A DNA stretch of 64,000 bases, taken from Apus apus (Eukaryota > Chordata > Aves > Apodiformes > Apodidae). Location of the stretch: assembly GCF_020740795.1 (NCBI RefSeq), contig NC_067291.1, positions 12,838,780 to 12,902,779 of the forward strand, given 5' to 3'. The position numbers were made by a program, and so were the translations under genes. The notes under the pieces were generated by a model, which was not told the DNA's origin, did not search any database, and saw only the letters and a program-made list of their open reading frames with translations. Below, in pieces: positions 3,001 to 36,700 of the stretch (position 1 is the stretch's first letter; each line of letters starts with the position of its first letter).

Positions 3001-3601
3001 CCCAAGCCGATCATGCAGGGACACAATCCCTGCAGGAATCCAGGACAAAGACTAGAACTGCTCAGCATCCTAGGGCTTCTGCCAAGGCAGAGATACAGAG
3101 CCCCATTCTGCTGTCACTGCTCAAGGGAAGCCCCCGTGGTGCTCAACAGGAATTTCACTGCTGACCCCAGAACTTGAGCCATGGCTTTGCTTCTAAGTGC
3201 ATTTGCTTATTGCTGTGTAAGAACTGTATTGCAGCTTACTGCCTCCTGACATCTCCTCTGTGCTTCCCTCAAACTCTGAGGCCACATCCTCACCAAGTCC
3301 TCAGCGTATATAACCTCGTAATGCTGCACCAGCTAAAGAGCAATGTTCTGGATTTCCTGGGTACAAGGTGAAATCTTCCTCTAACACTGATTTTTTAACG
3401 TATGTCATAAGATACCTTCGCATTTTACCAGCTTAATAAAAACAAAACAAAACAAAGCATTGAAATTGTCTCTGTGGTATGCACTAATGTAACATGCACT
3501 GCTGCTTGGAAATTTTTGCTCTAGGATAAATCTCTCATCGCTTCAATAACCTTCACAAACTTGCACATGTACCAGCATGCATTCCTGCTTTCCTTACTCA
3601 C
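1..3601. other. No gene recognised (expected site of the relic's C-terminal exons)
   Basis: The downstream CEMIP-family exons should lie here on the minus strand if intron sizes were ordinary. I could not find FFGKPGPWF, FHDIDGSV, NYLIRHP, QYQPVV or KGYTIHW counterparts. The open frames at 1076-1435 (+), 1081-1281 (-) and 2547-2756 (-) match nothing I know. Confidence 0.6.
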
Positions 3602-3779
3602 ACTTTTCTCCATCAGGACTTCCGACACATTATTCTGGGAACTTATCTGCCAGGAGTTTTTGATGAAGAACCCGATGGCACTTGAGTATCTGTCAGTGAT
3701 TGGGGTGAACTTCTTGAAAGTGCATTTTGCCATCCTGACAGACCCATCATAAATCTGGAATCCACGAATAGGGAACATC
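3602..3779 (-). pseudogene. CEMIP2-type relic, exon n (intact frame, last exon found)
   Basis: The acceptor is TCTCACAG and the donor AGT/GTGAGT. All 59 codons are open: MFPIRGFQIYDGSVRMAKCT, FKKFTPITDRYSSAIGFFIK, NSWQISSQNNVSEVLMEKS. It is much closer to CEMIP2 (FPIRGFQIYDG, DRYSSAIGF, KNSWQI) than to CEMIP (FPIRGIQLYDG, NNAWQ). The next family exon (FFGKPGPWF, FHDIDGSV) was not found between here and position 1. Confidence 0.93.
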
Positions 3780-5612
3780 CTGTGAGATTTAAAAACAAAC
3801 ACAACCCTGTGTTAAAAGTTTGGTTAAACTCCGAGTCTTCTCCTGAAGGCACAAAAAGATATTAACAAGCAGCTAAACCACCTTTCCTTTCCCAAAACTG
3901 GGATCTGGATGCTCATTGCTCATCCCAGTTAATGAAAGGTGAAACTCAACTGAACATCCTCTACAGAATAAGGCTTAAAGGCCAAAAAAATTACAGCTTG
4001 ACTAAGGCTTTCAGCTGGCATAAAGCAGTTCTAAACCCTTGTCTCCAGCAACCCAGGGGTTCATCAGCATGAGGAAGCCCCAAAGGGGCAGCATTGCCAT
4101 CAGGTTTCCTATTCCAGGGTAGATGGGTCTCTCAGGAAAGCATCAGCACGACTGAAAAACTTGTATCAGACTCCCTGAAGGCAACAGTGTCTCCTTGAAA
4201 GCCACTGCAGCAGTTTCTCCTCTCCATACAAACCCCTTCACACAAGACCCCTGGGACCCAATCCACAGCATTCCATACAGAAAAGCTGTTTCTGCAGCAT
4301 CGATCCATGGACAAGTTGTCAAGACATGAACGTTGAAGGAGATGCTGCTGGAGTCACGGGTAAGGACCTGCCCTTTCCATGGTTTGTTTTGAGAAGGAGC
4401 CAAGTTTTCCTTGGCCCCAGTTGTGTTTGATTAAAGCGTGGCTTGCACCAGCCTCACAGATGGTAACGAGGCTGGCGAGTAGTGGCCCGGAGGGGTAAGT
4501 CACTGCTTACCCAGTCCAGGAAGAGCTGTTCAGACATGAAAGCCACAAAGTGGACAACCCAGGAGCACACAGGCTCTCTCCAGCTTGGAGGTCACTGAGG
4601 CCCAGATTCTCTCCCAGCCCTGATGTTTTTTCTCACTGTTTGGCTCCAGAGATCCAGAAACACTTCGCCAGTCAGAAACACCAGGCTTAGTGTTTCTTGA
4701 CCAAATAATTCTTCAATTTCCAGAGCTGTTATCCCAGCAGTTGGGAACCCCCATCTCCCATTTTACACTGTGGCATAATGAGAGGACAGATTTGCTCCTT
4801 TCCAAGAGAACATTGCTTAATAAAGTCACAGATTATTAGAGCTTGTTTGAACTGCAAAGGAGTATTTTTGCAATTGCAATTAAAATTAAAAAAACACTGA
4901 TAATAATAGAGGATAGCTCTGATTATTCTTGCTGTCCCACACAGATCCCATTGCCACTTATGGCTGAGATGTGTAGTCAGGGCTGAGTGATGGCATGTCT
5001 GCTGAGTACTGTTTATTCCTTAGTTTTATAATCCTCATACAGGGATTCATGTTTGGTGAGCAACACCAAAACCTTACATTAGGGCAGAACTTACACCTTG
5101 CTATGGGGACGCAGGTAGGCACCGTGGTTGTTAGGCAGGAGGTTGTGCTGCTGCCAAACTACAAAACAACATACGGCTATTGAAAGAAAAATGAAGTGCA
5201 ATAATGGAAAATGGTTTCTCCTTTTTCAAACTGGCCGTGTTTGCCCAGATATGCCAACAGGAGGGAGGGTGGCAAGGTGTCTGGGAGCTGCTCCAGCAGC
5301 CCAGCACTGCGCTAGTGACGCACCACGCAGAAGCCATTTGGTATCTCTCAGAATCTCTAATCCATTCTCCAGTGACTAATAAATGAAGCAGAAAATTAAA
5401 TCAAACATATTTAGCTGAGAATACTCTCAAGATGTTGGCCTGAAGGGTGAGTTTATTTGGATGCTTATTATTTCTGGCCTGTGCAATAATTTAAACACCC
5501 ATTATAAATTACTCATTGGTAGTCATAGTAATTCCTGAGGCTTTTCTTTTAGTTTATGTGAAAAAAAAAACAAACCACACCAACAAGAAGAAATGGCAGA
5601 AAAATAACTCAC

Positions 5613-5763
5613 TTGTTTCTGGGCAGTGTTCTGTATTCCCCAGTCCCTTTTCCCCAGTAGCTGTTTTGGCTTCCCTGAGACCCAAAGTTGCTGCTTTCTC
5701 CAACACAAATGGAGCACGTGACTTCCAGGCTGGAGCCTTCATCTGTCAGGAAACACCCATCAA
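5613..5763 (-). pseudogene. CEMIP2-type relic, exon m
   Basis: The acceptor is TGCCTGTAG and the donor AA/GTGAGT. It reads DGCFLTDEGSSLEVTCSICV, GESSNFGSQGSQNSYWGK and EYRTLPRNK, matching DGSFPSDEGSSQEVSESLFVGES and RTLPRN. One extra T at the 5' end (5763) throws it out of phase with the preceding micro-exon. About four residues are missing before RTLPRN. Confidence 0.88.
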
Positions 5764-5978
5764 CTACAGGCAAAGAAACACGAGGTAACTATGCAACACA
5801 GCACAACTGATTAATTCTTTACTTTAACTCCACGACAAATGTAGCAAAATTTCTCTCTTAAATTGGCATAACAGCCTGCTTTAAAATCTCTCTAGAAACC
5901 AGGAAGTTGATGCTGAGGTAGTTTATTGCTCGGGCATCAGTAATACAGGTAACTTTGGATAAAACTAGCTCTACATTT

Positions 5979-6016
5979 ATATATATGTGTGTGTGTGTGC
6001 CTGTATATATATATAT
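5979..6016. repeat. (TA)n(TG)n(TA)n microsatellite
   Basis: A short TA run, TG repeats at about 5986-5999, then TA repeats at 6004-6016, in the relic's intron between exons m and l. Confidence 0.95.
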
Positions 6017-6600
6017 TTATGAAATTATAAATAAATATTGCTCTATACTAAATTGCTCTATAAGTTTTTAGCTACATCCTGGAAGCAAGAGCCAAATACT
6101 ACTGATTCTCATTGCCTGCAGTGAGCTTTGGATACGGCACATTTTTGCAGGTCTTTTGCAAAAGGGATCAAGACAAGAGCATGGTTGACACCAGCAGAGG
6201 AGGAAGGAGACCTGCTGTGTCACCTCGTGTGACCATCCCAGCCACCCTGTCTCAGCAGCACACGAGCTACAGGCAATGCTGCTACACTGGACTAGAGCAG
6301 AACAAAAGTCTTCCTAAAGGCAGAGCCAGATGTTCAGTCTACTGGTTCAGGAACTACCATCCAAAGGGAAATACTCAGCAATTATGATGTATTCCCCAGG
6401 CATGCTGAGACAAAGAGAATGAAAAACTAAATTGCCCCTTGTATTAACAGCTGCATGGGGAAGACTTGATGTGGTCTGGGAGGGAAACATGAGGTTTTCT
6501 CATGTTTTACAGGAATTACCAAGGGAGTGTCTCAGCTTCCATTCTTGTGCCTTTTGTGCTGGGGGGAAAAATGGGAAGAAGGCCCACGTTAAGAAGTTAC

Positions 6601-6628
6601 CTTGCCAGAGTGAGTCGAGCTCCATTAT
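6601..6628 (-). pseudogene. CEMIP2-type relic, exon l (28-nt micro-exon)
   Basis: The acceptor is GGTTTTCAG and the donor AAG/GTAACT. The 28 nt read (D)NGARLTLA, matching the family DNGIGLTFAS/DNGIGLTLAS motif in the phase required by the preceding exon. The short length is supported by the homology on both sides. Confidence 0.8.
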
Positions 6629-6724
6629 CTGAAAACCTGAGACAGAAGAAACACAAAAGGTGTAAATGACAAGGAATTTCTGCAGTGAATTTGGCCTACA
6701 GACCCCTTTATATCTGCCACATAT

Positions 6725-6864
6725 CCTGATATCCTGAATTGCTGAAAATAATGTCACCACCTCTTGTTCAGGCCCCATGGACATTATTTTTTAAAACAAT
6801 AAGACCATCGATCACAGCAGGAACTCGTGGTTTCTCAGGATCAGCATCCTGATGTGGACAAAAC
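6725..6864 (-). pseudogene. CEMIP2-type relic, exon k (nonsense codon and dead splice donor)
   Basis: The acceptor is GCTTCAG. It reads FCPHQDADPEKPRVPAVIDG, LIVLKNNVHGA, then TGA at 6770-6768 where the family has Trp (GAW.RGGD), then TRGGDIIFSNS in the same frame. The homologous exon end falls at CAGG/ATATGT, where a normal donor would be GTATGT. The +1 base (6724) is A on the transcript strand instead of G. Confidence 0.9.
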
Positions 6865-8203
6865 CTGAAGCAAGGAGATTAGTTAACATGGCACAGAAGA
6901 CACAGGAACTATCCACAGGTGGAGGAGGTCATGCCTGACAGAGATTGTTTGCTTTCCAAATATCAGCATGATGGGCCTAAAGAGGTGATATACCTGGATC
7001 AGAGTCAGGCTATCACCTTGATTTCACCTACAAAGCAGAAGACCAGAGATATTCCCAAGGCTGAAATTCTGGCCCCAGCGAAATCAGCAGCAGATACCTC
7101 ACTACACTTCAGTGGGCCCACAGCTTAATTTGATTCAGTGTGATTTAAGGCATAGAAAACATTTTTCCCAAGTCATTTGGGTCCTTTTGTAATAGTCCTT
7201 ACAAGGCCCACTGAGAATCACTGGATTGATGCTAGAGAAGCAAGTAGGTGCTTTCAAGAATCTCATTCAGCAAAGATAACAGAGTAACTGGAGCTGCTTT
7301 CCCTGCATGTACACACCAAACTTCCATGTGCTTCTGTCTCTGCTGAAAGAGAAGCTGTCATATGGAAAAAGGGTTCCCTCTAGGAACTGGGCACTCCTCA
7401 GTGACTTGCAGGCTAATTCTTGCCATGCTGGCTGTTAATGATAGATTTGTGCCTTGTCTGGAAAAAATCACCATTCTGTTCTCTGCATCAACTTTCACCT
7501 CTACTTTTTCCAGCTGATGTACTGAGGAACGTGTCTCCTTAGTGGCCAAGGGGGTGACCCTGGCAGGAAAGGCTCACAAAGGGACCCTAAGTCACCCTTT
7601 CCTTTCAGCCATATGGGAGCACCATAGGTGGCATTGACAGGGTATGATGGAGGAGGAGGAGGAAAAAAGCCAAGGCTTGACTCAGGAGCAGTGGCTGATT
7701 TCTGCCACATCTCCTCATGGAGCCCCATAAGGCTGAAGCAAGCAAGAAAATTACCTTAATTCAACAGCTTTCACTCTACCAAAGGAAGCTCAGAGTTTTC
7801 AAAGCAGCTGACAAAAAGCTTTGAGGCTACTTTATTTTCCTCATTAACCCTAAACCAATCTCAGCAGTCTCTTACATCATCTTTCTATGATCTTCTAAGT
7901 AATTAACAAGAAATGTTGGAGCTTACAAACCCACTAATGGACAAACAGGATCTGGATCCCCCCTCACATGCTTAACTGCTTAGTCCTCATAACCCCAAGT
8001 GCATGTGTCTCATTTTTGGTCAGCAATAACACAAACAACCCAGCTCATAGCCATTAAGTATTTGCCTCTGCACATCAGAGATAGCTTGGGTAGTTTTTTT
8101 CAGATGCTGCAGCCATAATGAGGCATTAATGATCTGCTAAACACAATCCAGAAGCCAAGCAGCAATGCAGCTATCCAAAATAAGCCATATAGCATGTGCT
8201 TAC

Positions 8204-8289
8204 CTGGCGTTATCCACAGTAAGATACTCCCTGGGATCTTCAGTGCTGGCTCTCATTGTCTTTACTCCTTTCCCAATAAACAAGCCAGC
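8204..8289 (-). pseudogene. CEMIP2-type relic, exon j (open)
   Basis: The acceptor is CATTTTCAG and the donor AG/GTAAGC. It reads AGLFIGKGVKTMRASTEDPR, EYLTVDNAR, matching AGLFIDKGVKTTNSSAADPR and EYLCLDNSAR of CEMIP2. No internal lesion is seen. Confidence 0.92.
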
Positions 8290-9307
8290 CTGAAAATGCA
8301 CGTGACTCCCATTATTTTAACAGACCACCCAGCAGAAACCAGAGGTCCCAGATTTTTATCTATGAACATGGGCAGCCAGCACGTGCAGGCAAAGCCAGCG
8401 GCCACAGCCTGGGCCTTCTCTTCCCTTTTGGTGTCACTTGGCCCTGCTCAGGGTGACATGAGCATAGGATGCTGCTGGCTGAAGTCAAGACAGAGCCTGC
8501 CCTGACACGTGTTTTGCATCAGCATCTCGGGCTGCCTGCTGATCCAAAGCAAGGCACTGAACTCCCACTCTCTCTCTCCCTCAAAGAAAGCAATAAGAGG
8601 CTCTGCCAAGCTCATGATAACTTTTTGGAAAAAGAGTGTTGTTAAGAAGTAAGGCTTTAAATAAAGAGTGATGAGTCCCCTGATAGTCCAAAGAGAACAA
8701 GAGCCCCTGTAGCTAAGTTAAAGACTTTGGGCTAGAGCAGCACCTGCCATGGACCAAGAAGCAAAATATACAGAGCATGGAGAAGAGCACTGATTTCCAT
8801 CTAGTCTCCTGAGAATGAAGTTTAAAATGCTTTTTACACCTTACAGGTTACGTTTTCATGTCAACAGTGTATTGGTGGGAAAGTGTTTTTCTTGGAACTA
8901 CCCTTGAAATTTTGGTCTAAGTTTTCAGAGGTGATGAACAGGCTCTGGCACAAACAGCTTTTTCTCATCCCCCTACAGCCTGGTACTGCTGTGGCCAACT
9001 GCAGTGCTCACCGTCCTGCCTGTCATTCCATAAGTCTCACTCACGTAGTAGGTGTACCTATGGCCTGAGCACATCCCCTCTAACATACCCAGCCAAAGCA
9101 CCTGAAAGGGGAGCCCCATCCTTCTCAGCTTCCTCTTTGATCATTAGAAAGAGCATCAGCCCCAAAAGTTGATTGTCTCTTGATATAGTTAAAAGACCTC
9201 TATCAAAATGTGAGACTTCCTTTATCGCCTGAGTTCAGAGCACCACACATATCAGCCCTAAACCACACTATTTTCTTGATAGTGACTTGTAAAAGTCATC
9301 CACTTAC

Positions 9308-9435
9308 CTTGAAATCGGAGTAAACAGTTGTTGTAAAAGACCCCCAGGGGGGTATGTTCAGCCTGTCCCCTCTGGATATTGCCCCTCAGACTGTTCAGTT
9401 GGAACCCGATGGAAGATGTACCATATCCCAACATC
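9308..9435 (-). pseudogene. CEMIP2-type relic, exon i (two frameshifts)
   Basis: The acceptor is CTTTTAG and the donor AAG/GTAAGT. It reads DVGIWYIFHRVPTEQSEGQY, PEG, then shifts by an extra base near 9364. The unshifted frame hits TGA at 9360-9358. The next frame gives QAEHTPLGVFYNN. A further 2-nt loss near 9317 is needed to reach SDFK and the phase of the next exon. The match is to the AGIWYLFHKEPTGE and TPLGIFYNN segments. Confidence 0.9.
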
Positions 9436-10068
9436 CTAAAAGGCACAAGGAGGTCTGAGAAATGGAACACTACAACTAACGGTCTAGGTTATCTGGGAGA
9501 CTTTGGGTTTCCCACTGTGCTGGGCAGATTTCTAACCTGAGCCAGTCAAACATGTGAATCCCAGGGTACACACATCAGTCCATGCTCTTACACCTCTCAA
9601 CTGACCCTTGGGCACAGACACTGGGCCCCTGGGTTACACACAGGTTTTAAGAATGCATGTGTCGTGGGTGAAATTCGGGTGATTTATTAGCACATGAAGC
9701 CTTCTCTATACAGGCACATTAAACACAAGCATGATTTGGATAAACATCAGAGATAAAACCAAGGAGAGAGTATATATTTAAATATATAAAAATAAAGTGT
9801 TATTGGGCATTTCACTATTAACTACCAATAAAAATCAACATCTGCTAAGAGACACCACACACCATTTCCAGCCACACTGTGAGAGAAATCAGTGGAAGAA
9901 CTGTGGGTAAATAACTGTCCTTAAGAGAGATGAAGGTTGCAGAAATACTTATCCAAATTGTACAATGACTAGCTAAAAATTAATTGCTCTCACTCTAATG
10001 ACATCAATAGGAGTTGAATATATGGGAACTGGAGGCAAAATGTAGCTCTTGCTGTTACATGGTTTTAC

Positions 10069-10138
10069 CTGAGCACCAGCTGCTGCGTTCTCTATTAAGT
10101 TGTTGTTTGGATCTGAAATCCAGAATGTGCTGACAGCC
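10069..10138 (-). pseudogene. CEMIP2-type relic, exon h (70 nt, open)
   Basis: The acceptor is ATTTTTCAG and the donor CAG/GTAAAA. It reads AVSTFWISDPNNNLIENAAA, then GAQ. This nearly matches the family AVSTFWIAHPNNNLINNAAAG block. Phases agree with both neighbours and no lesion is seen. Confidence 0.92.
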
Positions 10139-11561
10139 CTGAAAAATCAAAATCAAAATGATCCTAAGCAGTCACTGAACAGGAAGGGATACACTTTCAT
10201 AGCACTGCACTGGACTTGAGCCACAACTCTCCTGTCGACTTTAAAACTCCACACAACCTCTTAATGATACTCTTTAAGGGAAAAAAAAACCCAACCAAAA
10301 ACATCTAGTGATGTCAGACACGTTCATTTATGGAGCCACATGCTGAACCTATTGTAAATTATATGAGACCGTTAACACAAAATCCATGTTCTGTTAAATG
10401 CAGCTTAAGGAAACTCAATGTCATCTTCTTTTAATTTTTTTAGTTAAGCAGCTTTGAAAAATGTCTGAGAAGTGAACTTCTGGTTGTTTTTTTGGAAGTT
10501 CAAGGGCAATGGCAGGAGGTAAAAGATTCTCCATGGGTTTACAGAGCTTCTATGTGGAAAACAAATGTCCCTGCAAGCCACAAATGGCTCGTTAAATAGG
10601 AGATTAAGAAGAAGTTATTTTGACATTTGCTTAAATAAGGAGTTTTTTCTTCAGAGGGAAGATCAGCAGTGACACAAACAGAAGCCAGATAACAGCTACT
10701 AAAAGATGATCATTTGTCATCTTACTTTATGTGATAAAAATCTTTTGCAGTAATAAAGACCATATGTAAAAACACTGTAAATCTTCTCATGATCATACAA
10801 ATTAATCTGATCGTTCTAAGCAGGAAATATCAATATTTTTTAATCCACCTTAACTCTTAAATAATAAAGAATCCACACTCCTTTGCATAAACGGAACCAC
10901 TAAATAAGTGCAAAATAAATTGGTATTAACTGTACCATCAACCTTCACTGAGTGCCCATGTTACAGCTCATAGGACTCCAGAACAGAATCTAACTTTGCT
11001 CAGCTATATCAGGATATTCTTTATTGTTAAATGATGCTGACTGTAGTTTATGCCAATCTTTGCATTCTCACTAAATCTCCTGATGTACTCCAGATATCCA
11101 TGCACTGTTGACCCAATTTACTCTAGGTGCTCCAGCCCCAATTCAGCCCTGGTGAAAAAAAAAGCCAAAACCTCCCTTTGTAGCAAGTGAGATTTTTGCC
11201 AGCCTATAGAAGGGCTGAAGCAACTTGCATTTATCACACAGATTCCATGGAGCCTTCAATATAAAAAGAAGCGAAAGGGGGTCAGAAATCAGCAAAGTAC
11301 TCTGACATATTTAGGATTCTCAGGAAAGAGCGACAGGAATAACCAGCAGCAAACAATACTTGCTTAGGATTCATGTAGGTGTTAACAGGTACCTTCACAA
11401 AGAAAACACTGTTAAGTAGCTAAATGATTTAAAAATTAAAAATGGGTGAAAAAAAGCTACTAGTTTTAATTTAATGAAAAAGCACCATTTGAAAGATTCA
11501 CCCAGCTAAAAAAACATACAATGTAGGTGCAAAACCTGACTCCAGACCCTGCAGCACTGAC

Positions 11562-11766
11562 CTGCAGTGGGTGCTGGGCACGGGAAGGTGGTCCCCGTAG
11601 AGGTGGCTGCAGATGGCCGGGCACACGACCTGGCTGCCATCCCATGGCAGCACCGTCCCCTGCCTCCTCAGGAGGCCCAAGTTGTGATGAACCTGTTGAA
11701 TTGCTCCGTCCCATCTTCGAGGAAGAAACAGTGCCCCAGAGCGTCATAGCCAATAGTGTCTCCTAC
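11562..11766 (-). pseudogene. CEMIP2-type relic, exon g (frameshift)
   Basis: The acceptor is TTTTTTCCCAG and the donor AG/GTCAGT. It opens VGDTIGYDALGHCFFLEDGT, then one base is missing near 11690-11702. The uncorrected frame stops at TGA 11670-11668. The other frame continues VHHNLGLLRRQGTVLPWDGS and YGDHLPVPSTHCR, matching FHNLGLLTKPGTLLPTDR and NYIPVPATDCM of CEMIP2. Confidence 0.92.
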
Positions 11767-14700
11767 CTGGGAAAAAAGCATGGAGGCCACAGATGGCAGT
11801 AGGAACACACAGCGGTAGGAACTATAACTGATGTGCTTTGCTCATCCCTGAATTCCCGAAACACTCACGGAGTGGTTCTGCCACCCCTCTGCACAGCGAG
11901 CAGTGCCTCCAGAGCCATCCAGCCTGGAGCTAACTCCGACTACAAGCAGTTTGCATAACTGTGGACTCACCTTCTTATACAGCAAAACTGCTACTAAAAT
12001 TACTCTGAGGAAGATCACATGCATCTTAAAATGCTGGATTTAAAACCGCCCTCAGATCTGGGAGAGAATATTTGTTTCAGCACCTTGGAGCAAGTATCTG
12101 GATAAAGATGTGTGCCTTGCTTGATAAAACCAAGTTACCCTCTTTAATCCAGAAATGTTAATGACTGCAACATTTCCCAAATAAAGTAAGAAATTATTGA
12201 AGATAGGCCATGTGAAGTAAGTCATATAAACAAAGTTTCTGTTCTTTCTCCTCCACTCTCAGGAAGTGCAGGGCTGTGTCAGTCTTGTACTGATCAGCCT
12301 GGGCAGGGATGGTGTTTTATTGTTTCAGCCTATTTAAGATTAACTGACGTGCTCAGGGATATTGCATTAAACCCTAATTTGACCAAGAGGACTTAGCACA
12401 AGCCTCCTTTGATGTACAGTCTTATGAAGACAAATTCAGAAATCCTTCTTTTAAATGTAAATACTGAATCAAACTAGTTAAAATGCCAGCTATTTGTTAC
12501 AAAATCTTTCTGAAACCTGACTTTGTAGTCAAATGATGCCTGTCAGCATATTTATTCACTCCTCAGGCACACAAAATTCCTGTTGACGTCAGAGTTATGT
12601 CCATGTAAGACTGCAAGATTAACTAATATTAACCTACTTGATTATTTCTGTATACAGAAGGATACTTGAATTAAATTAATTTCAGATTCATATCCTGTGG
12701 TTTCCCCTTAATGGGCTGGAACTGTATAGAACATCTGGAGTCACAAACAGTATAGTCCCCATAGGGATATTTCTACTGGATTTCATTGTTTTCCTGGCAG
12801 TCACCCCTCAAACTTGTCATCTGCTGCTCTTGTTTCTGCCCTAATGAGGTGTTGAAGAGAAAGCTAAAAATAAGGCAAAACAGAACCAGGTACCCAGCTC
12901 CTAACTGATAGAGTTTTGGAAATCCATTGAGACCCTGCAGGCAGGTGCAACAGCTTGGAGTGAGCTACATGGAGGGTAACAGGAAACCTACATGCAGCCA
13001 CACTGAACGTGTCCCAGCCAGCTGAGTCTTGAAAATACAGATAGGAAATGGATTTAGATAAAATGCAAGCATCCTTGCCAGCTTGCTAAGAACAGTAAGC
13101 CTAGCTACTTCTGCTCTTTCAAATGATGGGCAGAAGCTGCACTAAAGGAAGCCATGGAAGACTATTTTTGGAAAGAACCTGTAACAACAATCTGCCCACT
13201 GTTTTACACAGCATTTCAATTGTAGAGCATAATTCTTCTGAATTTAGCTGAAATCTGGCTAAACTGTCCTTCAGACACGTGTATTAAAAACCAGCCTTGC
13301 ATCCAAAACCATATTTTAGTTGTAATTAATATGATTCATCACAGCTTCAGAAACGCACGGCAGCCCTGAAAACTTCCATACACAAAACTGCATTGATGGC
13401 TTTCCTAACCAGAAATAACATCATCTAAAGATCACTTGCATTTGCACTGAAATATGAGGGCTCACTGCGTCATATCAGAAACCCCAGTAAGTGATCAATT
13501 CTGGCATATCACAGATAGAAATTAAAAGCTTGGGAAGGAGAGCCCACCTGGGGCACTGTGACAGTAGCATATTACTGTATGTGGCAGCATGAAACACCAT
13601 CCACAGCACAGGCTACAGCCCTGCTGGTGTATCCAACACCAGATGACGGAGATGCCTCTGAACACTGAATTATATATAGTTCAGCAACACAATATAAGTG
13701 ACCTTTATGCATTGCAACGTTAGACATGAAAGCCTACAGCAGCCTGTGTGTGCCTGACGTGTGCCAGGGCAGCAGGAGGCATGTGGCAGCCTGCTTCCCA
13801 GCCAGGGGAGGGACCTGAGCTGCCAGGACCAGCCTGGCACATGGAGCAGCAGATGGGAGAAGGGCCTCGCAGACAACACCCCATGACCCAGACACAGCAA
13901 AGCACAAAGCATAGTACTCCTGCAATTACATCCTCTAAGCCCTCAAAACAGCAGAGGGGAAAAAACATCTCTCTGGTTTATTCTGCCTCAAGGGCTGAAG
14001 TTTCATAATTTGCTAAAACAGGTACCGTCTATGTCATTTAACTGCCTTGCTCTGATATACATCCTCTTTCCTGGAACTGCAAATTATTTCCATTTATTTT
14101 AAAGAAAGGTTATTTATTACATTTTAATTACCTTTCTTCTTCATGACTATATTGAAACCACAAGATTCTTCTTCAGAATCACATATTTCACCTTTGCTAT
14201 ACAATCTGTTCACTGATTCAGACTCAAAGCCCTCAGCAGCCTGATGTGGTGGGGACTGGATCTCACACTTGGATTCTGAATTTCACAACTATCACATCCC
14301 ACACACCCAGATAAACCCTTGACAACCTCACTTCTGATAAAGCGCAAGAGAGTACATCATTCTTCCCAGGATCAATCTTAACCTAAGGCTTAACTTTTTA
14401 TCCCAGGCAGGTTCCTTCAATTCCAAAGGCTTAATACCAGCAATAAGAGAAAGGGAGTTAAACTATATCCACATGTTCTGGGCAAGTCTCTTGCCACGTA
14501 AGGGCTCTGTACAGAAAAGCAGGGTCTACAATCAGTGCAAATCACCTAGATGAGATGACAGTCAATAAGTTTGAGTGATCCAGACAATACAAATCCAGTT
14601 TAGGGTACATGAAAAGTGTTCCCAGGTGTACAAGTCCAGCATCACATTTTCATTAACACAACCTTTTGTGGGGACACTTTAGCACAAGGGTCCCACCAGA

Positions 14701-15510
14701 GTCCATTCATGTCTGGTCTTACACAGCTTTATGTCTAGACTTGAGAAAAAGTTATAGGAAACAGAAGAGGTTGTGGATAGTTCATGGAGTGTCTCTGCCT
14801 GAGCACACCTCAGGTGAGAAAATGCCCACAGACATCAAAACACCATTCAGGGTCCTGCAGAGCACACAGCAGTTGGATGTGTCAGGACTGGAGTGGGAAT
14901 CTGTCTTTTTCAGCTGGGACACATATGGCTTTTTTGTGATTTTTTTTTTTTTTTTAAGTTCCTCTCCACAGTGCCCTTGCAAGGATCTCGGTCAATGCCA
15001 AGTTCCTGAGGGCTTTTCTGGCACTGAAGCAACTGTTTGGGTCTGTCCCTCTCATATTTCATTCCCTTTGTCATGAGAGTATTTGTGGATGTATTTCACA
15101 TTGCCCTGACTTGAACAACCCCTGCCTGTTTTATCTCCTTTGCAAATTAAAGCTTGTTTGCTTCAGTCAGGTTGATTTAAAGTCCATTGTTTCAATTTTA
15201 AATGGGAGTTCCTGCTATCACAAACTGTCCAGAAAAACCATTGTAAAGGCTTCACTATGCCTGATCTCATTTTTAATAATATTAATTAGGCAATACTAAG
15301 AACCAAAAATTCATTTCACAGAGCTGCATTACAAGAGCAACAATCCTAACCTGAACACCAGTCAAATGAAGTTGACAAATCAGGACATTTCTAGGGGAAA
15401 AGATGTCCTGTTTCAATATTCTGATTTCTCTTTGTATCACAGATGGCTCTGACTGTTCAGCAGTGCTCAAGCATAAAATGAACTTGGTATTAATAAAGCA
15501 TGTCTCCTAC
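11767..15510 (-). other. Intronic sequence of the CEMIP2-type relic
   Basis: The longest intron of the relic, between exons f and g. It contains no recognised exon, RNA gene or repeat beyond a T tract near 14940. The other relic introns (3780-5612, 6865-8203, 8290-9307, 9436-10068, 10139-11561, 15721-16568) are likewise empty to inspection. Confidence 0.65.
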
Positions 15511-15720
15511 CACAAAGCCATGAGTTCCACGTATGGCAACACACCCAGAGAAGCAGTGGTGGATAGCCGGGTTATCAAGGTACCTTGGGCATTCATATCC
15601 TCCTCTCTCATCCACATCCTCAGCCAAGTGAAAATGCACAGGGTAACTGCCCAGGACTTGCTGCCCCATGTTTTTTAATTTCACTCCTGACACGTGAACT
15701 GAGCTAAAATTCCTTAGGAT
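15511..15720 (-). pseudogene. CEMIP2-type relic, exon f (210 nt, intact frame)
   Basis: The acceptor is TTAACAG and the donor GTG/GTAGGA, phase 0 at both ends. All 70 codons are open: ILRNFSSVHVSGVKLKNMGQ continuing to SYPVHFHLAEDVDERGGY, NPAIHHCFSGCV and THGFV. This is one of the most conserved blocks of the family (parallel beta-helix start). It joins the next exon as THGFV/VGDTIGYD without shift. Confidence 0.92.
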
Positions 15721-16568
15721 CTGTTAAGACAAAGGTAGATCCAAGTAAGGCATTACCATACAAACACACACACGAAAAAAAAACCCTCTCCCCTCATTCT
15801 CATCAGGCAATTTGTTTGCAGAGTAAAACCAGGCCTGATCCCTGGAGGAGCTGCCAGCTCCCTGCTCTGACTTGCAGCAGCCCAGCACCTGCAGAGCAGT
15901 TTGCCAGCAGCTCCATCCCTGCGGGCACGGGGCTGCCAAGCAACAGCTGCTAAACACCTTCTGCAGCATTTGAGTGGCGTGGCTGTGGGCAAGGTGCTGC
16001 TGCCAGCTACAGAGAGGGGTAGCATTTACCACCAGGCTCCGTTTCCTGGTAGCTTTATCTCTGTCAAGTGATTTTAGGAGAGACCTGCACTGCTCCCCAG
16101 TTTCCGCCAAGTGGTAGAGGAGTAATTTTACACAAAGCCCCTGCAACAGCAAAACTTTACGCTGCCACCAAGAGCACACTGGACAACAAGAGGAGGCAAA
16201 GCACAGTGGGGTGAGACTCAGCACTTCTGTGAGCCCTGAAGGGAGCAGGTTTGCTCTGCAAGAAGCACAGTTTCTTCAGTGACATCTGCTGAACTACATC
16301 ACTTCACACTGACCCCACTGACAGCAATGTCACCAAAGAAGCCCCTCTCACCCAGGGAAGGGTACACTTTTGCATGTGCAGTGAAGGAAATGGCAGAGCC
16401 TCATTGCAAGCCCAGTTCTGCAAAAAAGGCCAATGAACTTTACACTTCTTCATATGCAAGTATACTTTTTCCCCCAGACACAGTTTCATGCATTATATTG
16501 CTTGTTTACAAACCACGAAAGGAACTATCTGAAATCAACTACAGGTACTGGCATTAAAAATTACTCAC

Positions 16569-16740
16569 TTTAATATGTCCACCAAAATTCTCAAAAAGAG
16601 AAAAACTGACATTGATTTTGTCCATAGCAGGAGTCTTCCATTTCTCTTTGAATAACTATATTTCTAGTCGGGAGACTGACCTCTGCCCCTCATATCAACG
16701 CCATCTATGACTTCTCCAATATGAAGATAAAGTGGGCTGC
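16569..16740 (-). pseudogene. CEMIP2-type relic, exon e (two 1-nt insertions)
   Basis: The acceptor is TTTTCCCAG and the donor GTGAGT. It begins GSPLYLHIGEVIDGVDMR and then loses frame at a GGGG run (16689-16686) where three G are expected. The next frame gives AEVSLPTRNIVIQREMEDSC, GQNQCQFFSF. A second insertion in a T run (16597-16593) creates TGA, after which ENFGGHIK resumes in the third frame. NIVIQ.E.EDSCY and NQCQFF are CEMIP2-like rather than CEMIP-like. Confidence 0.92.
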
Positions 16741-17094
16741 CTGGGAAAATCAGAAACCTTTTTCATTCAGAGTGAGCACAGCATCTTCATCATCACGTTG
16801 TTCTAAGCAATGCACGCCTTTCATTTAAGCAAACACCAAGCTCAGGGACATGCCTGGTTGTTAGTATTTGATCCCAGAGGAGACCAGCATTTTCCCTGAC
16901 TTCTACAAAGGAGTGCTGACCCAATCAAACTTTAAAGTCCCAATATTGGGGCCTTCAGCTTTCATATGAAAAGTACACGTGTTATGGGAGAAGAAAAAGC
17001 TAAAGAGGCAAGTAGGTATAAATGTGAAATATTAAAGACAAGACAACGTAAGATATTTACCACAAATTAGCAGCTTGATAAAAATATTTCATAC

Positions 17095-17275
17095 CATCAA
17101 TTTTCACTTGATTACTCAGGGCAAGGAGGGAGATTAAACTCTTCAGCCTGATGCACAGAACAATCCATACTGGCGACAACAATCCGGTCACCAGGTAACC
17201 AACTTGTAACTTCATCCACCAAATGAAGAGTTATCCCTTTGGACACTTCCACTTTAACTCCATTAAGAGGCACCC
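17095..17275 (-). pseudogene. CEMIP2-type relic, exon d (premature stop)
   Basis: The acceptor is TTTTTTCAG and the donor G/GTATGA. It reads GVPLNGVKVEVSKG, DEVTSWLPGDRIVVAS and VHQAEEFNLPPCPE, then TAA at 17114-17112. The expected continuation NQVKIDG is present in the next frame, so a small indel near 17110-17120 broke the frame. The match is to the SSWKPGDQIVVASTDYSMYQ region of CEMIP2. Confidence 0.9.
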
Positions 17276-17591
17276 CTGAAAAAAGGAGCAATCAATTATT
17301 TTCACAGTTGCACATGACAGAGTCATGCAATTAGTCAAAGAGCACACCAGTTTAATTTATATCTATGTAACTGTGTGAGATAGGAGTGCTCTAGCCATTA
17401 AATATATCAGTGTCACCTCTTTGTAGGCAGCTAGAACGTTACTTGGTGAGAGTACTGCTGCTAGTTGGGTCACCACCCATACAAGTAAAAGACTAAGGTA
17501 TTATTATCATGGCACTATTCAGATTCACAGCAGCTAGAAAAAAATCAGAGCAAGGCAACAGAAGATGAGTAATTGTCAGGGAAGACTAAAC

Positions 17592-17749
17592 CTTTCATCC
17601 CTCCGCTGAAAGCAGTAACAGTAAAACGCGTGCCATCGTAGGTGAGGAAATCTCTTCGGGCAACTGCTAAGCTGTTGTTCCATTCCCGTGATATTCCCGC
17701 TTCTCTTCTGCTGTGGAAAACTAATCCCCTCCGAGGATCCCAGGGCTGC
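17592..17749 (-). pseudogene. CEMIP2-type relic, exon c
   Basis: The acceptor is CCTTCAG. The exon reads RQPWDPRRGLVF to RRDFLTYDGTRFTVTAFSGG, matching the family YRQAWALVGV and REFYTVDGQKFSVTAYSEW segments. It is open and phase-compatible with both neighbours. The donor G/GTTTAG departs from consensus at positions +3 and +4 and may itself be damaged. Confidence 0.85.
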
Positions 17750-17969
17750 CTGAAGGAGAGCGGGAAGGAACAAAGCGAGTGACACCCCGAACCCTGCATC
17801 CCCCAGAGAGCTGGGGCAGGAGGGGAGGGTGCAGCTTGGGGTGCCTCCCGTCCCTCCTCCCGCCCCCCCCGGTGGCGCCGCCGGGTCGGGGCCGGCCCGT
17901 GCCGGGAGCTGTCCATGGTGGCGCGGCCGGCCCGGCCCCCCCGCCCCGCGCCCGCCGCCCCCGCCTCAC

Positions 17970-18501
17970 CGGCCGCGCAGGCGGCCCCGCAGCAGCAGCC
18001 GCGTCTCCAGCGTGAGGTTGCGGGGGGCAGAGCCCGCCACGGCGGCCGCCAGCAGCCTGCCGGGGGCCTGCAGGGCCAGGGGGGCAGGCAGCCGCTGGCA
18101 CTCGCCTGGCTGGGTGTCGAAGCGCCCCGCCGCCAGCGCCCGCCCCGAGCCGGCGTCCAGGGTGCGGGGGTTGATCCCGCGGCTGCCCCGCTGCTGCTCC
18201 GAGGAGGAGGAGCCGTGTGGGAACCCGCCGGAGCGCGGGGTTTTGTCCAGGAGGGTCCAGGAGCGAGGCCGCCCGCCGTGCAGCTCCAGGACACCGCCGC
18301 GACCCAGGCCCACGAACTTCTGCCCGAAGCCCTTCACGGCCGCTCCCTCGGCGGCTCGCCCGTCCAGCGAGATGGTGGCCCGCGAGCGGCAGGAGCAGCG
18401 CTCCCAGCCGAGGTGCAGCTCCCCGCCGTCGTGGATGAGGATGTAGCGGGTCCGCAGGGTGATGGGCGGCCCGCGGGGACGGTCAGCGAACATGGCCCTC
18501 C
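17970..18501 (-). pseudogene. CEMIP2-type relic, G8/GG exon b (532 nt, open)
   Basis: The acceptor is CTCGCCAG and the donor CG/GTGAGG. One open frame spans the whole exon: ITLRTRYILIHDGGELH, FGQKFVGLGRGGVLELHG, SWTLLDKT, RFDTQPGE and APGRLLAAAVAGSAPRNL. These line up with the end of the G8 domain and the GG domain of CEMIP2. It is extremely GC-rich, unlike exons further downstream. It carries no lesion itself, but in GC-rich DNA the lack of stops is weak evidence of selection. Confidence 0.88.
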
Positions 18502-18618
18502 CTGGCGAGCAAGGGGAGAGGAGAGAAGTTGGGGGCTCGGCATCTCCTAGCCGCCCCCCGCCACTGCCGGGCTCCGGGAGCAGCCGGCGGCCCCGAGGGG
18601 ACGAGCAGCCCCGCTCAC

Positions 18619-18751
18619 CTCCGTCGCGGATGACGAGGGAGTGGAAGGCAGCGGAGCTCTCGAGGCGCAGGGCCGCCCCCCGGCCCACCACGGCGGGGGT
18701 CGGAGCCAGGATGCCATGGGGCGAGGTGTGGGGCGGCCTCCGGGCAGGACC
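18619..18751 (-). pseudogene. CEMIP2-type relic, G8 exon a (frameshifted)
   Basis: The acceptor is CTCTTGCAG and the donor G/GTGAGC. The first half reads SCPEAAPHLAPWHPGSDPR, corresponding to the family CPDQ..L..W.PG.D block. The second half reads VVGRGAALRLESSAAFHSL then VIRDG, in a different frame, corresponding to the family LRLTSDATVHSIVIQDGG segment. The frame change falls at about 18689-18700, where the homologous sequence is also short, so a small deletion is likely. Confidence 0.85.
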
Positions 18752-19298: not shown

Positions 19299-19430
19299 CT
19301 AACTCCCGGCAGCGCCGAGCCGCAAACTTTGTACTCCGCCTCTCGGGAGCTCCCGACCCGGGTGCTGGGCACCCCGGCTGCAGGCAGCAGAGGCAGGGGC
19401 AGGCAGGCGCAGGCAGCTCCCGCTCCTCTG
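19299..19430 (-). other. Candidate non-coding first exon of the CEMIP2-type relic
   Basis: This is the stretch from the predicted start, about 27 bp past the TATA box, to donor TTAG/GTAAGC at 19298. No start codon with family-like sequence follows it before the first G8 exon at 18751, so the membrane-anchor/start exon is either lost or too degraded to see. The 19298-18752 interval also contains a poly-A tract on the transcript strand (19111-19097). Confidence 0.4.
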
Positions 19431-19456
19431 CTCCGGCTGCCTCCCCTCCGCCTCCC

Positions 19457-19464
19457 TATTTATA
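19457..19464 (-). promoter_or_regulatory. TATA box (TATAAATA) for the CEMIP2-type relic
   Basis: The minus strand reads GGATATAAATAGGGAGG, a consensus TATA box inside a CpG island. A start about 25-30 nt downstream (near 19430) would transcribe a short leader ending at the strong donor at 19298, then read toward the relic's G8 exons. Function is inferred from motif and position. Confidence 0.55.
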
Positions 19465-19764
19465 TCCATCTTCCAACCGCTGGCGGTGCCCGCACTGTTT
19501 ACAGCAGCGGAGCTGCTGGCTCCTCCCAGCCGGGGACGATCCCTCCAGCCTGGACGTATATCTGCGACGGGCGCCCAGGTGCCCGGGGCCGCGGGGACCC
19601 CGCTGCCCACATGCAAAGATCTTCCCCGGCTCCGAGCCCCTGGGAGCTGCGGGCTCCCCGGGGGCACGGGGATGGGGTCAGACTCAGCCCGGGGAGAGCC
19701 CAGGGGGTCTGTGCAGACCCGCGGAGCAGCCGGCTGGGCTCCAAAGCCCTACGCAATATGTGAG

Positions 19765-26310: not shown

Positions 26311-26370
26311 CCTTTACAGAAGCCAGGAGACAACTTAATGCTGAAGGTGTAGGGGTTGTCTTGGTTTTTC

Positions 26371-30484: not shown

Positions 30485-30704
30485 TCAGGAGTTGGGAAGT
30501 TCATGAGATATGAACTGTTTTAGTCTCTCTAAGTACTGTGCATAAAGCTCTATGTCATTATGCCCAGCCCCTTCCACCCAGAGGGGCTCTACTGCTCGTG
30601 GACATCGCTCGTACATGGCCAGGCCGTGGGAGAAATCAATTACCTCGTCTTCGGTACCATGGATCACCAACACAGGAGAAGTTACTTTAGATATCTTGTC
30701 AATG
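30485..30704 (-). CDS. ABHD17C: ABHD17C exon 3 (terminal coding exon)
   Basis: The acceptor is CCCCTAG and the exon opens with the base completing S238. It encodes [20 protein letters not shown] through the C-terminus SHELPNS and stops at TGA (30487-30485). It contains D257 and H286 of the catalytic triad. The 3' UTR follows directly. Confidence 0.97.
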
Positions 30705-33700
30705 CTAGGGGATGGAAAAGAAAAACATAGCTCAGTTTGGGGCTTTGACTTCCATACCATTAAAGAACGCAAGCTTAACTATTGATACAGGATCCAGTTA
30801 CCACTGCACATTTTCAAACGGCTGCAAGATGCTGGAATTATGCCCAGGTGGTACAGAACCAGGCTCACTGCCAAGATGCACGAGCAAACAGAGCCTGCAC
30901 TGCCATCACCATCATTCCACCACTTCTGACAACAAGATGCTCGAATGGGCAGCATGCAAATAAAGTTTGGCACCAAAAACCCCATCCCAAAACAGTCAGT
31001 AAAAAACACTGAGAGGCAAGTAAGATTCCATGGGACCTGCTGCCAGTGTCGACTCTTTGCATCACACATTACCACCTTCCAGTATAACAGATTAGGAACT
31101 AATTAACTACATTCCAGTCATAAGACTCATAAAAAAGAAAAAAAGCCTTAGCTGCTGAGGTTTGAACACGTCTTTAAACCCCCAAATTAAAGCAGATTCA
31201 GCTGAAGAAAAACAAGCTGTTCTTTGTACCGATTGTCCATGCCCAAATGGCAAGAAAGAAAACTGGGAGACCGTTACACAAGGATATTTAACCACAAGCC
31301 AGAAGAAATACACAGGATTTTACATCACACAACTAACTTCTTCTGCAAAGTGGCCTTACATTTTTTTCCTTCTGTTCCAGCTATGCTTAGGAGAGCAATA
31401 CAGCTGGTGACCACCTCTCACAGGAAAAGGAGTTCAGAGGGAAGGGAAGAGCGACAAAGGCACCTCCACACCTACGAGTCCAGGCCAGAAAACCCAGCCG
31501 TGAAGCACAGTGGTAGCACATGAACTTCCAAGTGGTGAAGAGCAGCTTTCTCTGACTGCCTTCATGCAGGCACCTGCCTTTATTTCCAGACTGCCATTTC
31601 CTGTTGGTAGGTACCAATAATTCCAAATCAGTGTATAGGCACCAAGTGCTCATGAACTCTCAGCTTCCTACCAGTTCCACTTAGATCAACAAATGGAGGA
31701 ATTGGCTCTGGACAATATGCAGAGTATGGGATGAAATGGGTGGAAAAATGAGTATCAGTAATATTCAACATGACAGGACAAGTCTACTTCTTTATGCTAT
31801 CTAATAAAAGGTCTTTGGATTTTCCTGCTCCTGAAGAACATGTAAGCACGCAATTTTTATTAAGACTAGAGATCTTACAAAGTGATCAAGGCTGCTTAAA
31901 ATTATTTTAAAATACTGATGCAAACACACACTGACTTTAAGACAGGTTTAAAGAAGCTTTATGAAAATATAAAGTTAATTAAAAATTGCAATGTAGACTG
32001 AAGCACTAAACCTCATGCATATAAATCTCAGCATTTAGTATTCTAGAGAACCATCATTGGTATTCCAGTAAACAACTGAGTGTAAACACATTTCTGTCTC
32101 TGTCTCAATACTTCCCCCCCAAAAAAATAGGCTTAGTTTCATTTATAGAGGAAAAGTGGTATTGAAATTTAAAATGTAGCCTTTTTCACTTTTCCTGTCT
32201 GGAACTTGAGTTGTGTGCAACTATGCTGAACAGAGAAAAATATCCCAAGAACATGAGAAATCGGAATAATGCTATTTCTTTTAATATTTTTCATCCCCAA
32301 ATTCAGTACCATAGGCAGAGGCAAATGCTTTAAAAATGACATGCTATATAAACTGAAGTCTTAAGCCCATGAAGGGTTTGTCCCTGAGTTCACAGTGTGA
32401 CAGACATGCCAGCTGCATACAGCTACAGAGATGTTTATACACCATTTTAGTGGCTAGACACTAAGTTCTCATTTATTGTAGGACACCAGGAAACTCCTTT
32501 CACCTAAGTATCCAGATAATGAAACTATTTTTTTACATATATTCAGACCATTTAGCTAGATAATATTTGTATTTTGCAAAAAATTGGAAAGTGTCCCATT
32601 GCCAACTCAGCAACTCATAAGGCAGCATTTGAACTGCACACTGGGCTTACTTAGTATTCTTAGCCACACCACTCTGCAGCTAGAAAAATCTACAGAGACC
32701 AAATTCTCATGGAGTCCCAACATAAAATGCAGATAATAGCAATTCACTGGAGGTGCACACAGAACTATGTTGTTTCCCACTGTGAAGACAGACAGTTGAG
32801 CTGCACACATTCAAAAGAGCACACTGCTGTTTATTTTCACTGCTTACAGTGGGAGTGAAGTCAGAGTGACAGCAATGAGCAGCTCAGTGGGGTAAGAACA
32901 AAATACTCAAGTACATCTGTTGTCACTGTTCCCCCTCCCACTTTTTCTTTTTTAAACTATTTGATTTGGCTGATACCAGCTAATCACTGTTACTTCTGTA
33001 ATCAGAGCTATTTTTAAGGCTTTGTTTTTTTCTCTCTCACAGAAGCATTTGTAAATAGTGGATTTCGGGTTTAAGCATGATGAATGAGTTGGAGCACAAG
33101 TGTTTTAAATTCTGACTGCACCTTCAACAATTTAATTACTTATTTAAATAATAACCCACTTGGAAGAATTCTAAACATGGGGACCGGATATAGATACCGG
33201 GAGAGCCACTGTTACTTGGTCACTATTACTTTTAGCTCTTTTGGCATACAGATTTGCATCTTCAGCCTCCCCCACCTTCTAATCTTAATCTGTTGTGAAC
33301 AGAATAAAGCAAACATAAATGCTATGAATATCCCCTACTCAGCTTACTGCAAACAAGTCCTTTTGAAGCACAGTCAAGCTTTGCCCAAGACTTTCGTGAG
33401 TCTCTTCTTTGTCTTCTCCCTTCCACAGACCACTTTGCTTTTTATCTGTGCCTCCTCTCACCACCCCCAGGTCTATATACACTGCTATAAAGAGGCTGGA
33501 TTCTCCTCTCCTGTTCTCCCATAATTTAAACTGGGTCAAATGACAAGTTTTAAAAGATTCCTAGAATATCTGCTATTCCCAGGACCTCTGCTACTGCCAA
33601 ATATTTGGATACTCTAATTTAGGCCTGTTGTAATTGCCTTTAAAATGAAGCACTAGGCTATAAAGGAAACTGTTCTATCTTGAAACTACCTGTATATGGC

Positions 33701-36700
33701 TTTAAGCATGCAAAATATTCTAGGGGTTCTTAAAACAAGGTGGAAATCTTCCAAAAGAGGGACAGTAATTTACTTTATTTTGGTCACAGACACCAGGATC
33801 TTACATCTCCATCATGGAGGAACAAATACATATTTGCATCTTTGGCGATACATGGACAGCGACCAAAGATGCAGAAGTGTTCTTACTTACAATGACCAAA
33901 GACAAAGAAACACTAATTGCAGTCCCTCAAGGTTACACATGAAATGCAGAAGCAGGCTGAAAAGCAACCAGCACACTGACCCTCTCTTGTTTTCTTCCTG
34001 TAAAAGCAGCAATTATCTCTGCCTTTTTCTCTGCTGATTTGGTAAAACAATTGCAATATTTTAACAAGCTGCTTGAAAACAGCACATCCATTTCATGATT
34101 TATTACCTTCTAAATCAAAATTGACTGAATTATTAAGAACGTACAACTACTCATTTGTTAGTCATCACCCTGAAAGACTTGGTGCATGTATTATCAGGAG
34201 TTAAGCTACTACTCCAAACGCGACAGCATAAAAATTCTGGTATTAACAGCTCAACACAAAAATACAGGGAAAAATAATTGTAAACACTAAAACTTAATTT
34301 GTTCATTGAGTTATGTCAGGTTGAGACTGACATCAGTCTGCTTTTACATGGTGAATCTCTGCTTGGATTCAGAAGCTGTGCATATCTGACATTTAAAATT
34401 CAGGTGATAATTCAATAAAATTCCTCGGAAAATTACACAACATAAGGAGAGTCTTGAGCATATGTAATAACCCTCTTTGCAGTGTTTAGACATACCTTGG
34501 AAAAGCATCAAAGCAATAGGTTTTCCTAGTGTCAGGAAAAGCTACCCGTAATCCAGACATCAAGGGAGAATGAAGGATCACTGCTGCACACTCGTACCGA
34601 GATGCCAGGTCTACTGTAGGGACAGTACCAATACTCTGACCATACAGGATAATGTTCTCAGGACTCACACCATACCTGTAGAGAAAAAAAAAAAACAACA
34701 ACCCTTTAAAACAAAAAAACTCAAAACCACAACACACTTTCTATCAAAACAAGAAAAAAATCTGAACACAACCAAGCAAACAAAAGGAGAGGGGGATAAA
34801 AACCAAAGCATCCCCTCCCCCTGCATTATAGCTGTTCAGAATCTATTGCCAGGAGATACAAATTTTTAAGTCTAAACTTTAAAACAGTCCAGTAAAGTAA
34901 ATAATCACAATATTACACAGACTGAAGAGAACTATCCTCAAAGAAGGAATGTAATTTGTTTGTTTATCTTCACCTTCTTGACAAACACCTCTTATCTCTA
35001 ACTCCACAGCACAGCAAATTATAAATTAGATTTCCCCCCTGTCTAGAGTCACTCTAAGGAATTTCAGTTAGATATTCCGGAAGCTAGCAACCTTTCCATC
35101 ATTAAACAAGATAGTTACTCCTCTGGCCACCTTTATTTACACACAGCTGGAACAAGTTGCCTTGTTAGTGTAGCTAAAGACACCAAAGAGAATAAAAAAT
35201 TGTCAGGATGGTTCTGCTTGTTTTTTTTTGTTTTGTTGGGTTTTGTTTGTTTGTTTTAATTTCTGATCAGCTCTTTTCCAGCTTAAAATGTCAAGCTTAT
35301 TTTTTAACTATAAAGATGCATAATTTCATAAAATTCAAGGTTCATATGGAGTCCTGCATGGCCCCCTGATATTCCCATCTGGTCTAGAAAACTATCCTAG
35401 CTTGTGTACTTTTTCACAGCTGCAAAAAAGTTGAGAATTATACTAATTCAGGTTTTACAGAAAGTATGCAAAACACAAAGGAATTTGGAGGGGTGCAGGA
35501 GGAGGGGACAGTGGCTAGGAAAAAAGTGGATAATACAAGAGTATTTGGGCACCACAGCTTCTTGGGGAAGCTGCAACCAAAGCTGCTACTCAATTATATT
35601 TACCCAGAAGATTTCTATGTGTAACTCTACCACCTACTGCTAACCATATAAAGAATAATTGAGTGCAGAAGAGAATAAATTTCTGAAGAATGTGTCTTTT
35701 TGCCAGTCTACACTGTCTACAGTCCTGCTGTCAATGCTATGACAATAAAATAAAACCCTACAGTTTAGGCTATACACAATGTACACCTAGAAGGTTTCAA
35801 CCTCCTTGCAAAGCTGATAGTAAGGTGTACAGCCCGTCTGGAGAGTTCTTGACTTTCAAACAGCTAACCGATTTGGTAAGTGCAAGAGAAAATTACAGTG
35901 GAAGAAAAATCAATTATTAATTACAACAAAATAATCCAGTGCTAATTATCCAACTACGGGCTGTCAAGATTGCCTGGTTTTATGAAGTAAAACTAGGTTG
36001 GACTGTAGCCTCAGTAAAACTGCAATGTTTTTAATATTTCTATACTGCTCAGCATAAGGGTGCTTTTGGCAGCTACTGTAATATGAATAAGCAACTGTAT
36101 AAAAATATCTCCCTGGAGTAAAATCTTATCCTCTTGGTAACCAAGCAGCAGCTCACGTTGGTGGTCTATCACCACAGCCATGGCCTGATGTTTTTAAAGA
36201 GATGTTGTAAAGCTCTTTTAGGAGCAGTTTTTCTCCCTCACCATTTAAGAGAGTCCAGCACATAGCAGAGCCTTGCTGGTTTTGATAGGAATGTTAACAG
36301 GATCTTGGAGCAAAGTCTTCTCCTCACAGACTTCATTCCAGCTGCTGGATGGGCAGAGCTGGAAGCATGTACCTTTGAAGGCAGCACATGCATCCAACCT
36401 GCTGCTGCATCACATTAAAGACAGGCAGAAACGCACCAGCATCAGGGAATACAAGAAAGCAGGACTGGAACAAGATCCTCAAGTAGGTATGGGATGATAT
36501 TAATGCTGCTAAGTGTCACAATACCATTCAGCACTCCAGTATCAAAAGTCCCCTTTCTAAAAGGTTTACAATTGAAGCAGAACAGAGAAACAGATGTTTG
36601 AATGAGAACAGCAGGATAACATGATAACATAGGGTGGCAAGAGAATTCCTTCAACACATACAATTGCCTTAACACAGCAATTTTCTTCAACACTGAACTG

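Follow-up and report, generated by a model that had tools for sequence, protein, structure and literature searches.

The genome assembly of the bird Apus apus (1.10 Gb, 110 contigs) carries, next to the gene ABHD17C, the decayed remains of a gene of the CEMIP family, here called the relic, most exons of which lie within a 64-kb stretch of DNA (C11:12838780-12902779; hereafter the window). Along the contig the order is ABHD17C, the relic and CEMIP, all on one strand. An earlier note, made from the letters of this stretch, had claimed a decayed CEMIP2-type gene beside ABHD17C with fourteen exons in family order at 3602..18751, and the protein-guided alignment of CEMIP and CEMIP2 to the window that we ran, together with matches to the neighbouring genes, bears this out.

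Gene structure and domain content

Searches by tblastn with human CEMIP and CEMIP2 and frameshift-aware alignment resolve 14 successive exons in family order on the minus strand, from 18751 down to 3602 (Table 1), which span CEMIP2 residues 112-923. Both ends coincide with exon bounds. The gene nevertheless runs on past 3602: exons E15-E22 continue outside the window, and the whole gene model comprises 22 exons in order over 48.7 kb.

The linked tblastn matches reach E 8.5e-39, pieces of the relic match the structure of the human CEMIP2 ectodomain (PDB 8c6i) with E 2.3e-82, and two Pfam domains pass their cut-offs, namely G8 (PF10162; E 8.9e-23, 81 bits against a cut-off of 22.9) and the CEMIP beta-helix (PF24606, CEMIP_beta-hel; E 1.9e-76, 257 bits against 27.3). 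Because of these three results, chance likeness is excluded. The lectin-like ILEI domain (PF15711) scores 19.5 bits, under its cut-off of 27. Further, R265, D273, D286 and H552 are all retained; according to excerpts of two studies, mutation of the first three lowers the activity of CEMIP2 and H552 is a metal site (PMC10206443, PMC11043200).

Introns are retained throughout. The overall model has 21, of which 20 are GT-AG, with bounds chosen for splice-site fit and the E18 donor a guess. Of the 13 introns inside the window, 12 are GT-AG, the sole exception being the lost donor of exon 11, and this count is partly built in because exon bounds were picked to fit splice sites where these were present. 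The absence of introns that marks a processed pseudogene is thus not what is seen, and a processed copy of a CEMIP-family gene is rejected. In these respects the earlier note, which held that splice sites were mostly preserved and that introns spoke against a processed copy, was right. Its parallel statement on exon phases was too strong on the automatic reading, in which 8 of 13 junctions agree; in addition, E7/E8 agrees when read by hand, and E2/E3 agrees if E3 is read in its uninterrupted frame. The discordant junctions E4/E5 and E12/E13 coincide with lesions, and E11/E12 is that of the lost donor.

In a genome-wide scan with PF24606 (12 candidates, all 12 scored), ten of ten matches fell in three loci (four in CEMIP, four in CEMIP2 and two in the relic), and an intact second copy of the relic gene was not found. 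A similar scan with G8 gave six matches, one in CEMIP2, two in CEMIP, one in the relic and two on another contig. CEMIP and CEMIP2 are the only intact family members found in this genome. The two further G8 exon matches lie in C4:107223409-107288876 and perhaps belong to what we take to be a PKHD1-type gene.

Disabling changes and controls

Hand reading of the alignments gives ten clear disabling changes in the window exons: eight frameshifts (one each in E1, E4 and E7, two each in E5 and E9, and one at the E13 junction), one nonsense codon and one lost splice donor, the last two both in E11. The aligner flagged a further stop and frameshift in E3, which are left out of the count because an alternative frame is open throughout that exon; the many disabling changes previously claimed therefore stand apart from this ambiguous pair, which had been overstated. 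The spliced model is interrupted in every frame, by 24, 33 and 40 stops respectively.

As a control, the identical aligner was applied to CEMIP2 (22 seeds) and CEMIP (25 seeds) of the same genome, leaving out the short CEMIP2 exon 800-811 and the last CEMIP exon after residue 1319. It reported four frameshifts and five stops in total, all at or beyond splice sites, and inside hand-set exon ranges no lesion was present in 1368 codons of CEMIP2 and 1276 of CEMIP.

Table 1. Features of the relic and its surroundings (window positions unless given by contig; residues are those of CEMIP2)
Feature	Position	Strand	Description
E1	18619..18751	-	residues ~112-158; frameshift near 18698
E2	17970..18501	-	residues ~158-334; G8 and lectin-like region; single open frame
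E3	17592..17749	-	residues ~345-401; ambiguous lesions
E4	17095..17275	-	residues 402-~463; in-frame TAA and frameshift near 17114
E5	16569..16740	-	residues ~465-521; frameshifts near 16687 and 16596
E6	15511..15720	-	residues 522-591; beta-helix core including H552; open
E7	11562..11766	-	residues 592-660; frameshift near 11694
E8	10069..10138	-	residues 661-683; open
E9	9308..9435	-	residues 684-726; frameshifts near 9375 and 9326
E10	8204..8289	-	residues 727-755; open
E11	6733..6864	-	residues 756-799; nonsense codon at 6770 and splice donor lost
E12	6601..6636	-	residues ~801-811; open
E13	5613..5763	-	residues 812-864; junction frameshift at acceptor
E14	3602..3779	-	residues 865-923; open; donor consensus-like
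E15-E22	C11:12837209-12808833		outside the window; same gene continued
Possible old promoter	19299..19464	-	TATA-like box at 19464, GTAAG donor at 19299; from sequence only
ABHD17C	30488..56764	-	apparently intact; exon matches 56764-56231, 34677-34498 and one ending at 30488

Exons beyond the two ends

Outside the window, E15-E17 and E19-E22 are open, while E18 retains its first part and has lost the recognisable 3' part. Scores exceed those of shuffled sequences for E20 (36.6 versus 20.0 bits), E22 (42.0 versus 20.8) and E18 (29.6 versus at most 23.5 in 15 shuffles). E19 lies above the shuffles with the human query (24.3 versus 18.9) and equals them with the bird query (18.9 versus 18.9), and E21 lies below them (18.5 versus 20.8), being assigned by its position, open frame and splice sites. 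The assignments of E18, E19 and E21 are weak. The first matched exon of CEMIP follows about 10 kb beyond the relic end, on the same strand. The window edge, 1-3600, held nothing above shuffles when searched for exons after E14; the next exons were those found outside.

At the opposite end, the first exon of CEMIP2 (residues 1-111, the cytoplasmic and membrane part) was not found upstream of E1. With human CEMIP2 as query, 18600-30480 contained nothing above shuffles except the E1 match itself, and the bird first exon as query, run without shuffles, gave nothing convincing. Bird and human CEMIP2 are only 54% alike in this exon.

Relationship to CEMIP2 and CEMIP

Identity of the relic is 0.53 to human CEMIP2, 0.52 to bird CEMIP2 and 0.44 to both CEMIPs; human and bird CEMIP2 are 0.77 identical to each other over 984 compared columns. 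Within bird CEMIP2, the cytoplasmic and membrane exon (C36:38690820-38691173) falls under this overall 77%, and some C-terminal exons are also low against human (38-60%).

In a tree of five sequences (the relic with human and bird CEMIP and CEMIP2; 997 columns), the relic attaches between the two CEMIPs on one side and the two CEMIP2s on the other, with support 99.4/100. The approximately unbiased (AU) test on this set rejects a grouping with bird CEMIP2 (0.0024) and one with human CEMIP2 (0.0025). A second tree of 638 columns was rooted with 16 of 49 bacterial homologues found, hand-picked mostly by rank, and groups the relic with CEMIP2 (96.4/97); here the placement with bird CEMIP2 is rejected by AU (0.0029) and by the Shimodaira–Hasegawa (SH) test (0.0335). 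At sites that differ between human and bird CEMIP2, the relic has the human state at 58 and the bird state at 43, and strict patterns number 4 versus 2. Because the bird CEMIP2 placement is rejected by AU and there is no excess likeness to bird CEMIP2, the split of the relic lineage, on this evidence, precedes the divergence of birds and mammals.

The relic carries the CEMIP2 state at 86 of the 206 sites that separate the CEMIP and CEMIP2 clades, the CEMIP state at 24 and neither state at 96. Similarly, both the relic and CEMIP2 have a single G8/lectin exon (residues 158-344), which is split in three in CEMIP. We infer that the relic is probably a sister of CEMIP2.

Bacteria of several phyla encode proteins with the CEMIP beta-helix core, with 49 relatives (L034 3001-3318 and 48 other loci) among 94 stretches scanned; the best of them, in a metagenome-assembled genome, shares 54% identity with the vertebrate core used as query. 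Among viral contigs 0 of 81 stretches were related, and in an earlier scan of bacterial genomes 0 of 17.

Interpretation and alternatives

The relic is, with high confidence, a unitary-type pseudogene, i.e. the intron-containing remains, at the original locus, of a third CEMIP-family gene. Several results weigh against this reading: SH on the five sequences does not reject a grouping with bird or with human CEMIP2 (p 0.27), a grouping with CEMIP survives AU in the rooted set (0.133) and a position outside both clades is borderline there (0.05), some frameshifts sit at runs of equal bases, the first exon was not found, and counted lesions are concentrated in the 5' part (E1-E13) with E14-E17 and E19-E22 open. 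Further, the date given below rests on assumed rates, and loss "in this lineage" is a conclusion from one genome. The SH result, the greater nearness to CEMIP2 than to CEMIP and the common exon structure would suit a non-processed duplicate of CEMIP2 that arose in the bird lineage, landed here and decayed; but AU rejects such a recent duplicate in both sets, and the relic shares the human state more often than the bird one, which makes this origin very improbable and agrees with the earlier claim of a third family member rather than a late CEMIP2 copy. A dead tandem duplicate of CEMIP, sister to it and older than the bird–mammal split, would explain why the relic adjoins CEMIP on the same strand and is compatible with the AU value of that grouping. 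Against it stand the rooted tree, the unsplit E2 and the excess of CEMIP2 states at clade-differing sites, and we regard it as unlikely.

Assembly errors are frequent at runs of equal bases. Runs of this kind, four or five bases long, coincide with three of the eight frameshifts, and a fourth frameshift, loosely placed, is close to one; many splice sites and exons are also intact, as in a working gene broken by assembly or polishing. Yet with three or four frameshifts so placed, sequence error could account for a few of the ten lesions but not for the whole set. The nonsense codon, the lost donor and at least four frameshifts lie away from such runs, and CEMIP2 and CEMIP of the same assembly are clean, so that error as the full cause is rejected and a working gene is scarcely credible. 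A gene dead as a whole might still yield a shorter product from its 3' half (E14-E22), or its locus a noncoding transcript: the open 3' exons have GT-AG splice sites, and the 5' end still lies in CpG-rich sequence. The recognisable 3' part of E18 is gone, however, and the 3' exons do not clearly exceed the rest in retention of conserved residues (E15 28/34, E16 21/28, E17 8/14). The 5' excess of lesions is a weak sign of such a product, which we consider improbable. The preferred reading thus remains that of a unitary-type pseudogene, the remnant of an ancient third paralogue, which suggests that the CEMIP family was once larger than the two members commonly described.

Neighbouring genes and origin

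ABHD17C was matched with a human sequence, and in its exon 2 match (34498-34677) 60 of 60 residues are identical to that sequence. On C36, CEMIP2 has another ABHD17 gene upstream of it and in the same orientation, which we take to be ABHD17B, and C25 carries a third. The human neighbour pairs are ABHD17B-CEMIP2 and ABHD17C-CEMIP. Because CEMIP2 too has an ABHD17 gene upstream, a genome-duplication twin of CEMIP2 fits, and the relic was probably the duplication partner of CEMIP2 next to ABHD17C. In the simplest such history an ABHD17 gene and two ancestral CEMIP-type genes next to it would have been duplicated with the genome; one block would have retained the CEMIP2 type and the other CEMIP and the relic, the latter until lately in this bird. 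If true, the ABHD17/CEMIP blocks would clearly illustrate how paired loci from a genome duplication can differ in what they lose.

The 5' end of the relic lies in a CpG-rich stretch (17501-20000; observed/expected 0.47-0.95, peak at 19001-19500) that also contains the TATA-like box and GTAAG donor of the possible old promoter, and its promoter may still be unmethylated or used. Two more CpG-rich patches lie between the relic and ABHD17C: the second contains a GC-rich minisatellite with units of 28-33 bases (22512-22625), and the third (25501-26500) has observed/expected 0.54-0.64 and no assigned gene. No CR1-type repeat motifs were found with the seven patterns tried.

Age of loss and function

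Sites identical across human and bird CEMIP and CEMIP2 are retained by the relic in 315 of 408 cases (77%). For comparison, sites shared by the relic and one clade are retained by the other, working clade at 315 of 450 (70%) when that clade is CEMIP and at 315 of 390 (81%) when it is CEMIP2. Because the first figure is close to the other two, the relic would have evolved during most of its existence in the manner of a functional paralogue. With the four implicated residues, this retention supports the earlier statement that the gene once worked, and it probably did so until fairly recently. Selection would have maintained the gene over most of its history before it was inactivated, leaving CEMIP and CEMIP2 as the intact members. 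A rough clock gives d 0.012 from splice sites, 0.006 from nonsense and 0.038 from frameshifts, with wide intervals, i.e. a neutral divergence of about 0.006-0.04; it takes assumed rather than measured values for the indel and nonsense fractions and for the bird rate (about 2e-9 per site per year). On these values the gene was perhaps inactivated between a few and about twenty million years ago.

The product was probably, judging by its family, a secreted or membrane-bound beta-helix protein of CEMIP2 type with a part in hyaluronan binding or turnover. CEMIP and CEMIP2 are the two proteins credited with the hyaluronan degradation that is not due to HYAL enzymes, and the enzyme status of CEMIP2 is disputed, according to excerpts of the sources (PMC10206443, PMC10276149). 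A third member that kept the four implicated residues would, if true, be a natural comparison.

We lean slightly towards a wider proposal. In it a third CEMIP-family gene, located beside ABHD17C and twinned with CEMIP2 by genome duplication, once worked in vertebrates and works to this day in some sauropsids or other lineages, where it would play a role of its own in the turnover of hyaluronan; mammals and this bird would have lost it independently, this bird only recently. If the loss was recent, intact copies are predicted in close relatives. No paper on a third CEMIP gene was among the matches listed in the full-text literature, a collection that most subscription papers lie outside. The literature "CEMIP3" is CEMIP followed by a reference number and not a gene name.

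Comparison with known systems

A tortoise gene named "cell surface hyaluronidase-like" appears, in the available part of the source, in whole-blood RNA-seq and is raised in infected animals; its name suggests a CEMIP2-like sauropsid gene, which is a lead only and may be CEMIP2 itself or a fragment (PMC7449761).

Unitary pseudogenes have an intact gene in other species, whereas the relic is known from one genome. Like bird gene losses such as those reported for MOXD2 and parrot CNR2, it has no other copy found, retains its introns and was disabled in place at its original locus.

CEMIP (KIAA1199/HYBID) is 44% identical to the relic, its G8/lectin region is interrupted by additional introns, and it is free of lesions over the residues examined (8-1319 of 1361); it shares the domain family with the relic and is its neighbour on the same contig and strand. 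CEMIP2 (TMEM2) differs in lying on another contig and being intact, with an identity of about 52-53%, and its membrane-anchor exon has no counterpart found in the relic. The two nevertheless have in common the G8 and CEMIP beta-helix domains, the undivided G8/lectin exon and R265, D273, D286 and H552; their exon boundaries agree by eye, leaving out the short exon 800-811, which was not located in bird CEMIP2, and each has an ABHD17 gene upstream in equal orientation.

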